Assembly: GCA_030538415.1 (NCBI GenBank)
Contig: JAUNTY010000031.1
Coordinates: 1-34,619 of the forward strand
Length of the DNA: 34,619 nucleotides
DNA from: Neisseria sp.
Lineage (GTDB): Bacteria > Pseudomonadota > Gammaproteobacteria > Burkholderiales > Neisseriaceae
Direction of reading: 5' to 3'
Shown in pieces: positions 2,714-19,926 of the stretch (its first letter is position 1; every line of letters begins with the position of its first letter). A program made the translations under genes and the position numbers. The notes beneath the pieces are model-generated. The model searched no databases. It was not told the origin of the DNA and saw only the letters and a list, made by a program, of their open reading frames with translations.

Positions 2714-2755
2714 AAACCAAAGGCCGTCTGAACACGTTCAGACGGCCTTTGGTTT
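2714..2755 (+). terminator. Inverted-DUS terminator after the PBP gene
   Basis: Near-perfect 19-bp arms (AAACCAAAGGCCGTCTGAA and its complement) around a short loop, running into TTTT. It lies between convergent pbpG and apt and can serve both. Confidence 0.85.
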
Positions 2756-15848: not shown

Positions 15849-17486
15849 CTACCCCTGCCTGCATTCGGCAAACAAATCCAGCTCGCGCTTGTATTCCTGC
15901 GTATTCACATCATTGATGCCGAGCATGGAATGGAACACATTGTCGTGCGAATACGGTTTGGCGGCGTTTTGGCGCAAGCAGCTGGCCGACACGCCCAAAT
16001 CGCGGTACCAACCTTCGTTTGCCCAAAAAATCATCGGAATCTGCGTTTGCTCGCGCGGGGCGATGGCATACGGCGCGGCGTGCAGATACATGCCGTTTTC
16101 GCCCAAAGATTCGCCGTGGTCGGAGAAATACCACAAGGCGATGTCTTTGTCGGGCTGCTGTTTCAGTAAGTCGATGGTATTGGCCAGCATGCGGTCGATG
16201 GCGATGATGGTGTTGTTATAGGTGTTTTGCAATTCAGCGTTGCTGCAATCCTGAATCTGATTGGTGTCGCAAGTGGGCGCAAACTTGCGTTCGTCATCGG
16301 TGTAGCGCTGATAATAGGCGGGGCCGTGGCTGCCCATGGTGTGCAACACGATGACGCCGTCATCAGGCATGGCTTGGATTTCTTCGGCCAAACCGTTGAG
16401 CAGGGTGCGGTCGAGGCAGCCCTCGCTGCCGCATTGGCTTTTGTCGGCCAGCTCGCGGATGTCGATGTGCTTGATGCGGTCGCACGCGCCTTTGCAGCCG
16501 CCGTCGTTTTCACGCCAGCTGGTGTACAGCCCCGCGCGTTGAAGGATGTCCATCAAGCCTTCCTGATGTTTGGCGCGGTTGCCGTTGTAGTCGCTGCGGT
16601 TCATACGCGAAAACATGCAGGGCAGTGAAATCGCGGTGGCGGTGCCGCATGAGGACACATCGGTGTAATTAATCACTTCCGCGCCGAGTTTTTTCAATTC
16701 CGGCGTGGTATCGGGCGCGCCCGGGTTCAAGCCCCAGTTTTGCGCGCGGGTGGTTTCGCCCACCACCAACACCATCAGCCGCTTGCGCTCGCCCGCAGTG
16801 CGCTCGCGCTTGGCATCGAGGCCGATTTGCTCGAACGGGCGGTTGGCATCGTACACATTGTAAGCGGTTTTGAAGCTTGCGCCGATGAAGTTAATCGGCA
16901 CGATTTGATGGTTGACGCCTTTGTTGTTGCGGAAAAACGAAGCATAGTTTTGATAAGCAACCGCCGCCACGGCCAGCACCACCAGCAGCGAAGCCAGCAT
17001 ACTCGCGCCGCGCCAGCCCAAGCCTTTATACCAAGCCGAGGCCGGGCTGATTTTGCCGTAGCGCGCATACAGAAAAGCAGGCAGCACACCGGTCAGCAAA
17101 ATCCAGCCGATAAATTTCACCGACAGCCAGGCCGTCGCCTCCGACTGATTGGTTTGCAGCAGATTCTGAATCATGTCGGAATTGAAATAAATTCCCTGCA
17201 CCATCACCGCATACGAAGCACCTGCGCCCAACACCAGCAGCAGCGGCATCAACACGCGGTGCACTTTCGGCCAAAACAAAAGCTGCATCACGAAATTCAT
17301 CGCCGCCAAAATAAACAGCGGCATGGTCGCCAGCAGCAGCCAGTCGTGCCCTGCCGCCGACCGGCTTTTCTGCCACACTTCCTGCCAAAATCCGATATTG
17401 AACACCAGCATCGAATACACACAAAACAACAAAACCGCGCGGTTGGCGGTAAGGCGCATCCACGCCTTACCGCTTTTTTCCGCCAT
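15849..17486 (-). CDS. eptA: Lipid A phosphoethanolamine transferase, EptA/LptA type
   Basis: Inner-membrane enzyme that transfers phosphoethanolamine from phosphatidylethanolamine to lipid A, lowering negative charge and giving resistance to polymyxin-like peptides. From ATG 17486 it has 545 aa, close to the usual 544; an ATG at 17501 adds five residues and one at 17588 runs into the control region. About five hydrophobic segments fill residues 15-180, then the periplasmic sulfatase-like domain. The zinc/nucleophile set is present: GETTRAQN (Glu244), SSCGTATAISLPCMF with nucleophile Thr282, DNDGGCKGACDR-like Cys-rich block, HTMGSHGPAYY and SDHGES. It is divergent from the qseBC-type pair and shares its regulatory region. 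Confidence 0.94.
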   Translation of the reverse strand: MAEKSGKAWMRLTANRAVLLFCVYSMLVFNIGFWQEVWQKSRSAAGHDWLLLATMPLFILAAMNFVMQLLFWPKVHRVLMPLLLVLGAGASYAVMVQGIYFNSDMIQNLLQTNQSEATAWLSVKFIGWILLTGVLPAFLYARYGKISPASAWYKGLGWRGASMLASLLVVLAVAAVAYQNYASFFRNNKGVNHQIVPINFIGASFKTAYNVYDANRPFEQIGLDAKRERTAGERKRLMVLVVGETTRAQNWGLNPGAPDTTPELKKLGAEVINYTDVSSCGTATAISLPCMFSRMNRSDYNGNRAKHQEGLMDILQRAGLYTSWRENDGGCKGACDRIKHIDIRELADKSQCGSEGCLDRTLLNGLAEEIQAMPDDGVIVLHTMGSHGPAYYQRYTDDERKFAPTCDTNQIQDCSNAELQNTYNNTIIAIDRMLANTIDLLKQQPDKDIALWYFSDHGESLGENGMYLHAAPYAIAPREQTQIPMIFWANEGWYRDLGVSASCLRQNAAKPYSHDNVFHSMLGINDVNTQEYKRELDLFAECRQG

Positions 17487-17540
17487 CTTTCTTTCTTCCA
17501 TAATCCTGCCGATACATTTCGTTAAAACAAACATGAGCGG

Positions 17541-17573
17541 ATGATAGGCAGGCAGAATTAAGGGAAACTTAAG
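17541..17573 (-). promoter_or_regulatory. PmrA-type box and -10 for eptA
   Basis: On the minus strand CTTAAGTTTCCCTTAAT (17573-17557) is two YTTAAK half-sites with a 5-nt spacer, the PmrA-box arrangement. Ten nt further lies TATCAT (17546-17541), a plausible -10. No -35 is needed if the regulator recruits polymerase. Confidence 0.7.
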
Positions 17574-17608
17574 GCCGTCTGAAAACACGTTCAGACGGCC
17601 TTAAGTTT
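17565..17608. repeat. Inverted DUS between divergent promoters
   Basis: Perfect 19-bp arms, AAACTTAAGGCCGTCTGAA and its complement, around AACACG. The neighbouring genes point away from it, so it cannot be an ordinary gene-end terminator. Its outer arms contain one half-site (CTTAAG) of each flanking regulator box. Confidence 0.9.
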
Positions 17609-17632
17609 CATTTAAGCTAATTTTGCTTTAAT
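17600..17632 (+). promoter_or_regulatory. PmrA-type box and -10 for the two-component operon
   Basis: CTTAAGTTTCATTTAAG (17600-17616) is two YTTAAK half-sites with a 5-nt spacer. After exactly 10 nt comes TTTAAT (17627-17632), a plausible -10. This mirrors the eptA side and implies autoregulation. The leader would be about 107 nt. Confidence 0.7.
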
Positions 17633-17746: not shown

Positions 17747-18412
17747 ATGCGTATTTTACTGATTGAAGACGACCCCCACATCGGCGACGGCCTCTATCAC
17801 GGCCTGTTGAAACACGGCTTTACCATCGATTGGTTTAAAGACGGCAAACTCGGCCGCGACGCCCTGCCTTGCGCGCCTTACGATGCGGTGGTGCTCGACC
17901 TCGGCCTGCCCGGTCTCGACGGCATGGCGATTTTGGCCCACTGGCGCAAACACCGCTTCGACACGCCGGTGTTGATTCTCACCGCCCGCGACGCCCTGCC
18001 CGACCGTTTGGCGGGGCTCAACGGCGGCGCCGACGATTATCTCTGCAAGCCGTTTGCGCTCGATGAAGTGGCCGCCCGCCTGCTCGCCTTGGTGCGCCGC
18101 AGCCAGGGACGCGCCGTCGCCACGCTCGATTACGGCAGCCTCAGCCTCGACACCGCCTCCAAAACCGCCACCCTGCAAGGCCGACCGCTCACGCTCACCC
18201 AGCGCGAATATATGCTGCTCGAGCTTTTGTTGTCGCAACCGAAACACATCCACAGCCGCGCCCAAATCGAAGACAAACTCTACGGCTGGGATCAGGAAGT
18301 GGAAAGCAACGCCGTCGAAGTGCACATCCACCACCTGCGCAAAAAAATCGGCGCGGGTTTTATCCAAACCCGCCGCGGCCTCGGCTACCAACTCGGCGAG
18401 TTGCCCGCATGA
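17747..18412 (+). CDS. qseB: OmpR-family response regulator, QseB/PmrA type
   Basis: DNA-binding response regulator of 221 aa, started at MRILLIEDD; an upstream ATG at 17687 adds 20 residues foreign to the family. The receiver domain has the acidic pair D8-D9, phospho-acceptor Asp51, Thr79 and Lys101. The C-terminal winged-helix domain covers about 125-218 with [14 protein letters not shown] and RGLGYQLGE. By eye it is closer to E. coli QseB ([19 protein letters not shown]) than to PmrA, but the PmrA-type boxes upstream and the divergent eptA suggest a PmrA-like role. It overlaps the kinase gene by four bases (ATGA). The ribosome-binding site is poor. Confidence 0.88.
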
Positions 18413-19752
18413 GCCGCCGCCACAACGCCAGCCTGCGCCGCCGCCTGTTTACTTATCTCAGCGGCGGCCTGCTCGGCTTATGGCTGGCCACCGCCATCGG
18501 CAGCGCGGCGATTGCCCTGCACGAAGTCAACGAAATGGCCGACACTCAAATGGCGCAGCTTGCCCGCTCGATGATGTCGGTTTCTATCGGCTTCGACAAA
18601 CAACACGAAACCCCGCTCGCCCTGCCGCCCGCTCTCGAGCATGAAGACGACAGCAACAACGGCTTCACCATCTGGAATGCCGAAGGCATCCGGCTCGCCG
18701 CCGACCGCTACGGCCACGAAATCCCTTTTCAGACGGCCTCCGGCATTCATAACAACCGCCCCTTCTGGCAAGGCGGCGCGTGGCGTTACCTCTATCTCCA
18801 CGACGAAACCAGCGGCTACACCGTCGCCGTGTCGCAGCGGCTGAAAGAGCGCCTCTCCACCCTCACCAACGCCTTGTGGGTGCAGTTTGCCCTGTCGCTA
18901 TTGATGCTGCCCTTATTGATGTGGCTGACCGCATACGGCATCCGCCGCGGCCTGCAACCGCTCGCCGATCTCGGTCGAGAGTTGCAAGGGCGCGATGCCC
19001 AAAGCCTGCAAGCCGTGTCGGAAAACGTGCCGCGCGAAACCCTGCCGATGGTGCAATCGCTCAACGGCCTCTTGGGGCGCGTATCTGCCGCCATCAGCCG
19101 CGAGCAGCGCTTTACCGCCGATGCCGCCCACGAATTGCGCAGCCCGCTGGCCGCCATCAAAGTGCAGGCCGAAGTGTTGGCGATGAGCCGCGACGAAACC
19201 GAACAGCAACATCACCTCGCCAACATCCGCCAAAGCCTCGAGCGCGCCGGCCGCCTCACTGAGCAGCTGCTCACCCTCGCCCGCCTCGACCCGATGCAGG
19301 CGCTGGCCGACGCCGAAACCATCGACTGGCAGCAAACCGCCCATCAGGTGCTGCAAAGCGTCAACCTGCAAGCGCGCGAAAAACACATCCGCCTCCAACT
19401 CGACCACCCCGACGGCTTGAGCGATATTTTCCCCCGCGAAGGCAACCCCGTGCTGCTGCAACTGATGCTGCGCAACCTGCTCGACAACGCCATCCGCTAC
19501 AGCCCCGAAAACAGCCGCGTTACCCTCAGCCTCGCTTCAGACGGCATCAGCGTTTGCGACCAAGGCCCCGGCATCGCCGCCGAACACCTGCCGCGCATCC
19601 GCGAACGCTTCTACCGCCCCGCCGGACAAACCCAACAAGGCAGCGGCCTCGGCCTCTCCATCGTCGAACGCACCGCCACCCTGCACGGCTTGATGCTGGA
19701 GATTGAAAACCGAAGCGGAGGCGGTTTGTGTGTGACGCTGACGCGTTTGTAA
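18409..19752 (+). CDS. qseC: Sensor histidine kinase, QseC/PmrB type
   Basis: Partner kinase of the preceding regulator, 447 aa. TM1 is at about 18-36, the periplasmic sensor at about 38-152, TM2 at about 156-176, then HAMP. The dimerisation box [17 protein letters not shown] carries phospho-acceptor His241. The ATPase domain has the N box [13 protein letters not shown] (Asn360), DQGPGI (384-389) and GSGLGL (411-416), all intact. The sensor includes an acidic EHEDD stretch (77-81); whether this binds metal as in PmrB is unknown. A DUS inside the sensor encodes PFQTAS. The signal is not known; QseC and PmrB relatives sense iron, cationic peptides or catecholamines. Confidence 0.88.
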
Positions 19753-19884: not shown

Positions 19885-19926
19885 ACTTGAGGCCGTCTGA
19901 AAACCATGTTTCAGACGGCCTCAAGT
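19885..19926. terminator. Bidirectional inverted-DUS terminator
   Basis: ACTTGAGGCCGTCTGAAA pairs perfectly with TTTCAGACGGCCTCAAGT around a 5-nt loop. It lies between convergent qseC and the namA-like gene, abutting the stop of the latter. Confidence 0.85.

Follow-up and report, generated by a model that had tools for sequence, protein, structure and literature searches.

In enteric bacteria, the response regulator PmrA (BasR), which controls eptA (pmrC), has as its operator the direct repeat (C/T)TTAA(G/T)-N5-(C/T)TTAA(G/T) (accessible text of PMC10729948), written here as YTTAAK-N5-YTTAAK and called the box. In Escherichia coli K-12, eptA carries CTTAAG-N5-CTTAAT, but the hexamer that follows after 10 nt (N10), GAGCAT, is not -10-like. 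PmrA and QseB overlap in enteric bacteria (accessible parts of PMC10729948 and PMC10597456): for E. coli QseB, binding to the arn promoter and a reported effect on eptA are on record (PMC10597456, PMC10729948), and the protein shifts an arnB fragment containing a box of this type, which reads CTTAAG-N5-GTTAAT-N10-TAAAAT (PMC10729948). The consensus published for E. coli QseB is, however, a different sequence and counts against a PmrA-type reading (PMC10729948). QseB also binds the promoter of its own operon (accessible text of PMC10714720), autoregulation of ygiW-qseBC being described for Glaesserella and E. coli, and a site before capD is given as CTTAAN4CTTAG. Between ygiW and qseB of K-12 we read CTTAAG-N5-GTTAAG, a box with one mismatch, followed by N10-TTAAAT on the strand facing ygiW and by no good -10 hexamer at N10 on the qseB strand, and four Pasteurellaceae loci (L040, L066, L068 and L079) have a box with N10-TTTAAT upstream. 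The Aggregatibacter QseB site is CTTAA-N6-CTTAA, a form that was not found in the literature searched. On Enterobacterales plasmids, expression of mcr-9 is reported to be QseCB-mediated and induced by colistin in a paper that cites other work for this and whose own qseCB-bearing isolate was colistin-susceptible (accessible text of PMC7161257). In Neisseria meningitidis, MisR/MisS is named as the two-component system acting on LOS decoration (accessible text of PMC3526765). Finally, inverted pairs of uptake sequences (DUS) are frequent in Neisseriaceae and linked to terminators (accessible text of PMC3630211).

The locus analyzed here lies in a 34,619-nt stretch of a Neisseria sp. genome (contig JAUNTY010000031.1 of GCA_030538415.1), hereafter the window, and comprises the following features.

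15849–17501, minus strand: eptA, lipid A phosphoethanolamine transferase (EptA_B_N and Sulfatase domains; 43.0% identical to K-12 EptA).
17541–17546, minus strand: predicted -10 hexamer of eptA, TATCAT (sequence; N10 to the box in 17/17 orthologues).
17557–17573, minus strand: eptA-side operator CTTAAG-TTTCC-CTTAAT, predicted QseB-type binding site (pattern search, conservation).
17564–17609, no strand: perfect 46-nt palindrome with 20-nt arms and a 6-nt loop.
17574–17599, no strand: inverted DUS, GCCGTCTGAA-6 nt-TTCAGACGGC (reverse complement), filling the entire 26-bp inter-operator gap.
17600–17616, plus strand: qseB-side operator CTTAAG-TTTCA-TTTAAG (its counterpart in relatives faces PepSY-cyt b561(-qseBC)).
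17627–17632, plus strand: predicted -10 hexamer of qseBC, TTTAAT (sequence; TTTAAT/TTAAAT at N10 on the PepSY side of G003, G011, G012 and G029).
17747–18412, plus strand: QseB-type OmpR/PhoB-family response regulator (profile scores; K-12 comparison).
18409–19752, plus strand: QseC-type sensor kinase (weak 2CSK_N, HisKA, HATPase_c).

Read directly, the eptA side runs on the minus strand as CTTAAG-TTTCC-CTTAAT (17573–17557), 10 nt and TATCAT (17546–17541), and the qseB side on the plus strand as CTTAAG-TTTCA-TTTAAG (17600–17616), 10 nt and TTTAAT (17627–17632). The first-pass annotation had described 17541–17632 correctly to the base. PmrA-type boxes lie on both sides, one per divergent promoter and equally spaced from the -10 hexamers, and they are conserved across genera; the inner half-sites lie within the perfect arms of the inverted DUS, the palindrome spanning both of them and, given its 46 nt, also 4 bases of each spacer. 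Judged on their letters, both boxes have the form of PmrA-type operators, with direct hexamers, a 5-bp spacer and 0 mismatches to YTTAAK-N5-YTTAAK. Counted over the 2,839,161-base assembly in the narrower form CTTAAG-N5-YTTAAK, the pattern has 2 occurrences, which are these two boxes, and its reversed control has 1. This rarity, together with the recurrence of the box at 17/17 eptA orthologues (see below), excludes a chance origin. With a probability of about 0.8, the two boxes are an operator pair for the neighbouring QseB-type regulator, which would switch on eptA and its own qseBC.

The locus resembles the PmrA system in the direct-repeat form of the operator, in half-sites identical to those of K-12 eptA and in having the regulator gene adjacent to eptA. 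It differs in that the window regulator is QseB-type and divergent, whereas K-12 eptA, basR and basS stand in a same-direction row, and in the N10 spacing to a -10-like hexamer, which is absent at K-12 eptA. It shares with mcr-9 a phosphoethanolamine transferase gene near a QseBC pair; there, however, wbuC-qseC-qseB lies downstream of mcr-9 (accessible text of PMC7161257), whereas the window genes are divergent with paired operators. The ygiW-qseBC operon is alike in the binding of QseB to its own promoter (PMC10714720) and in the box-N10-TTTAAT of the four Pasteurellaceae loci, but there ygiW, and not PepSY or cyt b561, precedes qseB. The DUS pair is of the AG type, inverted and capable of forming a stem-loop, like other such pairs of Neisseriaceae; unlike them, it lies between divergent promoters and its extended arms are operator half-sites.

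EptA scored 622.7 bits against the domain family P_eth_NH2_trans (cut-off 500), with Pfam EptA_B_N and Sulfatase present, and 625.3 against the EptA equivalog PRK11598, slightly below the cut-off of 660; a second possible ATG start of its gene is at 17486. The best-scoring family of the regulator was the NCBIfam equivalog QseB, yet at 293.3 bits it stayed below the cut-off of 345, and the second-best, PmrA, reached 221.2 of 330 bits. The kinase likewise scored best with the equivalog QseC, at 330.9 bits below a cut-off of 475, and its 167.9 of 314 bits with PmrB places it outside PmrA/PmrB (BasR/BasS); it is 36.2% identical to K-12 QseC. The regulator is closer to K-12 QseB (60.6% identity) than to K-12 BasR (42.6%), and the 15 residues of its recognition helix are closely similar to TNTLEVHIHNLREKI of BasR. 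By these comparisons it is a QseB-like protein with a PmrA-like recognition helix. That a QseB-like regulator should have PmrA-like sites had been noted as a puzzle, which is resolved by the presence of such boxes near qseB of other bacteria and by the shift of the arnB box fragment by QseB; the two are no contradiction because the helix is PmrA-like and boxes occur at E. coli eptA, arnB and ygiW|qseB.

Conservation was analyzed in 83 Neisseriaceae genomes, of which 17 hold an eptA orthologue (E <= 1e-180) and 24 a qseB orthologue (E <= 1e-85), the 17 being a subset of the 24. Upstream of 17/17 eptA orthologues, from three genera, there is a box of no more than one mismatch, separated by exactly N10 from a -10-like hexamer (TATCAT, TATAAT, CATAAT, CACAAT, TACACT, TAAGTT or TAGACT), against 0.025 of 17 expected from dinucleotide shuffling with 400 shuffles per sequence; the orthologues are related, nine forming one tight Snodgrassella-type group, and are therefore not 17 independent trials. 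The spacing is 10 in all of them and never 9, 11 or 12, with 8 as a second reading in two. The comparison of boxes and spacing across Neisseria genomes that the first-pass annotation had proposed as a check thus came out in favour of both. An alignment of five Neisseria regions failed to bring the eptA boxes into line, so their register rests on the scan of the 17 promoters. Within 400 nt upstream of five eptA-like genes (41–47% identity) from genomes without a qseB orthologue no box was found, and the eptA box tracks the presence of the qseB orthologue (17/17 with, 0/5 without).

These promoters also bear on the reading in which the TTAAG runs are mere extensions of the inverted-DUS arms and the outer half-sites are due to chance. 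The genome holds 672 inverted DUS by the pattern used, 12 of them in the window, and in 27 distinct ones (the 12 and 15 fetched, of the 672) the arms are extended by 0–10 bp, this one being the longest and others reaching 9, 8 and 7; perfect arm extension by itself is unremarkable in this genome, and the 9-bp case, at 2723, lends this reading some support. However, the box is present at 16 orthologous eptA promoters that lack an inverted DUS within 350 nt upstream (one mismatch per arm allowed), and CTTAAG-N5-YTTAAK occurs nowhere else in the assembly. A single DUS within that distance is present in G011 and in G012, one each, and in none of the other 14. The case in which DUS arms were conserved and boxes were not, named beforehand as the one that would tell against the operators, came out the opposite way. 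As mere DUS arms the boxes are refuted by the 16 orthologues, and we regard that reading as extremely improbable. Two further pairs may be mentioned here: the 9-bp perfect extension belongs to another inverted DUS of the window (2723–2746), and one with a 7-bp extension (19892–19919) separates qseC from a convergent Oxidored_FMN (NamA-like) gene, a usual place for a terminator. Extended DUS arms may be a general feature.

The DUS itself had been suspected of a part in the switch. Both divergent genes and both predicted promoters lie downstream of it, so that it marks no transcript's 3' end and would terminate neither, in agreement with the earlier statement that the hairpin is no normal terminator here. 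That it insulates the promoters, or helps to spread the cassette by transformation, could be argued from its exact fit to the gap and from its being the only one of the 12 window inverted DUS between divergent genes, a count based on ORFs from a hand-set gene list with one gene start estimated. Yet the inverted DUS is absent at the other 16 eptA promoters. Against an insulating role stands the box-to-box gap, which is 26 bp in the window and, in the four other eptA-bearing Neisseria, 98 (G003), 132 (G012), 132 (G011) and 170 bp (G029) of other sequence, Snodgrassella-type genomes having one box only. Against a role in spread stand the 672 inverted DUS, among which its presence does not mark out this cassette, and the compatible trees of eptA and qseB. 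Both trees join the window with G003 (support 89/88 and 90/59). The eptA tree has G011/G012 as the next branch; in the qseB tree, which did not include G011 and gave G029 no firm position, that branch is G012 with Pelistega. There is consequently no sign of recent module transfer into the window. Both roles were rejected as unsupported, and a working DUS is in our view very unlikely. The Pelistega suis qseB (L003) is 78% identical to that of the window and nested among Neisseria, which suggests horizontal transfer to or from that genus.

Under the operator reading, the inverted DUS is probably a secondary, later addition, as the relatives keep the boxes without it. One DUS arm lies close to the PepSY-side box in G011/G012. 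A DUS at this box may be older than the arrangement in the window, in which loss of spacer would have moved the eptA box up to it; that sequence is uncertain, as G003, which is closest to the window in both trees, lacks a DUS at this place. It is also conceivable, but quite improbable, that the inner half-site of the qseB operator with four spacer bases, CTTAAGTTTC, was carried over to the eptA operator by a template switch across the DUS palindrome, and that the shared-base palindrome could extrude under supercoiling, removing both inner half-sites and coupling the promoters. TTTC opens the PepSY/qseB-side spacer in the window (G000), G003 and G029, GTTTG is found there in G011 and G012, and at the eptA box the four nearest relatives have GATTG, AAAGC, AATGC and CTTGC as spacers. 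The four shared bases are weak evidence for half-site copying, and long arm extensions are also found at other DUS.

The second box was traced through the relatives. In 5/5 eptA-bearing Neisseria, a second box with N10 and TTTAAT/TTAAAT faces away from eptA; in G003, G011, G012 and G029 (one mismatch in the last) the gene it faces is a PepSY_2 gene, which precedes one for cytochrome b561. qseB-qseC comes directly after PepSY-cyt b561 in G011 and G012 and lies elsewhere in G003 and G029. The order in G054 is eptA, VIT1, PepSY, cyt b561, qseB, qseC; this locus has two boxes of one mismatch each, one on the VIT1 side with N10-TATCAT behind it and one before PepSY with N10-TTTAAT. Pelistega suis likewise has a box with N10 and TTTAAT/TTAAAT before PepSY, with qseB after PepSY. 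In most Snodgrassella-type genomes (loci L004–L007; g10), eptA and VIT1-qseBC diverge around one box, VIT1 being the gene between eptA and qseB in most of these loci; in G078, eptA and qseB are direct neighbours. In the window genome neither PepSY (at E <= 1e-6) nor VIT1 (at E <= 1e-25) gave a match, and the first bases after the -10 hexamer of the window qseB, CCCACAGCGACAGAG, match the PepSY leader of G011/G012, ACCACAGCAACAGAG. For these reasons the qseB promoter of the window is likely the old PepSY promoter, now driving qseBC directly in this lineage. The ancestral order was likely eptA diverging from (VIT1)-PepSY-cyt b561-qseB-qseC, the middle genes having been lost in the window lineage, and the ancestral box-to-box spacer was likely about 100–170 bp.

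At qseB itself, the box is less constant than at eptA and not universal. No box (at most one mismatch) lies in the 4.8 kb upstream of qseB in G029; in G003 a box with N10-TTTACT is 856 nt upstream, with an opposite-strand ORF, by its appearance a candidate transposase, in between; and the N10-TTTAAT of the box next to qseB in G004 points to the divergent neighbour. Three of six g8 genomes (G058, G059 and G061; L180, L191 and L185) have a one-mismatch box, N11 and a perfect TATAAT upstream of qseB, which is a shifted version of the layout; of the others, G063 has a perfect box with N10-TAAAAC, G064 has boxes without a fitting -10 hexamer and G062 has none. In 74 named loci, the 900 nt before qseB contain YTTAAK-N5-YTTAAK at a density of 0.255/kb and the remaining sequence at 0.0035/kb (about 70-fold), self-complementary boxes being counted on both strands, and an exact box lies within these 900 nt in 12/74. 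Genome-wide, a looser pattern gave no enrichment in 46 genomes (24 matches vs 26 for the reversed control), so that a regulon search by pattern alone was unproductive. A stricter pattern gave 30 vs 11 over the 83 genomes, and 14 of these 30 matches fall at eptA promoters, spread over 13 genomes; a pattern anchored on the DUS, with 2 mismatches, was swamped by DUS flanks and yielded 18 matches in the genome of the window.

VIT1 was followed at 30 of its 34 matches. In genomes with the qseB orthologue, a box lies within 300 nt of VIT1 in 10/10, nine through the common eptA region. In G003, a stand-alone VIT1-family gene has a box with N10-TAAGAT (C1:657950–657982, minus strand; L212). Among 20 VIT1 genes of other genomes, a box was found at two, both g10 (G069 and G070, in which eptA and qseB missed the orthologue cut-offs), 17 had none, and that of G082 has a one-mismatch box without promoter layout. 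In Snodgrassella-type G069 (L219), eptA is in pieces and qseB is short, and the box is retained. The partners VIT1 and cyt b561 would point to a signal related to metals or redox.

In three g4 genomes in which no qseB orthologue reached the cut-off, the box adjoins another two-component pair, whose regulator is 48.6% identical. In these genomes (G050, G051 and G053; L208–L210) the box stands between that pair and a PepSY_TM/flavodoxin gene, and G050 and G051 each have one box that shows N10 and a -10-like hexamer whichever way it is read. G053, again with no qseB orthologue at the cut-off, also has a perfect box with N10-TAAGCT before an EptA-like gene of 43.5% identity (C3:179100–179132; L231). 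Other regulators may therefore read the box. For the window, this and the overlap of PmrA and QseB in enteric bacteria (PMC10729948, PMC10597456) would fit real operators read by another OmpR-family regulator, alone or with the QseB-type protein, or a QseB-type protein that represses. We hold this to be unlikely, given that the eptA box tracks this qseB orthologue (17/17 vs 0/5), that the neighbouring gene is the simplest reader and that N10 is a spacing suited to activation.

Boxes that are exactly spaced, conserved in relatives lacking an inverted DUS and found together with the gene of the regulator point most likely to direct activation of eptA by the QseB-type regulator, with autoregulation. 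The QseC-type kinase would sense a signal and phosphorylate the regulator, dimers of which would bind each box, ending 10 nt from the -10 hexamer. Bound regulator would activate in the class II manner, contacting polymerase near the -35 position, so that polymerase would be recruited at each -10 hexamer to transcribe eptA leftward and qseBC rightward, amplifying qseBC. EptA would then add phosphoethanolamine to lipid A. The lineage of the window would have lost the genes in the middle together with most of the spacer, and the DUS pair would fill what space remained.

In the open literature, which leaves most subscription papers uncovered, neither Snodgrassella and eptA nor Neisseria, QseB and eptA were found together. 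The locus offers a clean case in which an uptake sequence and an operator can be separated by comparison. It suggests that a QseB-type protein can take the place that PmrA occupies in enteric bacteria, and it predicts a regulator that would switch on the addition of phosphoethanolamine to lipid A in a branch of the Neisseriaceae that includes Snodgrassella, a bee gut symbiont.
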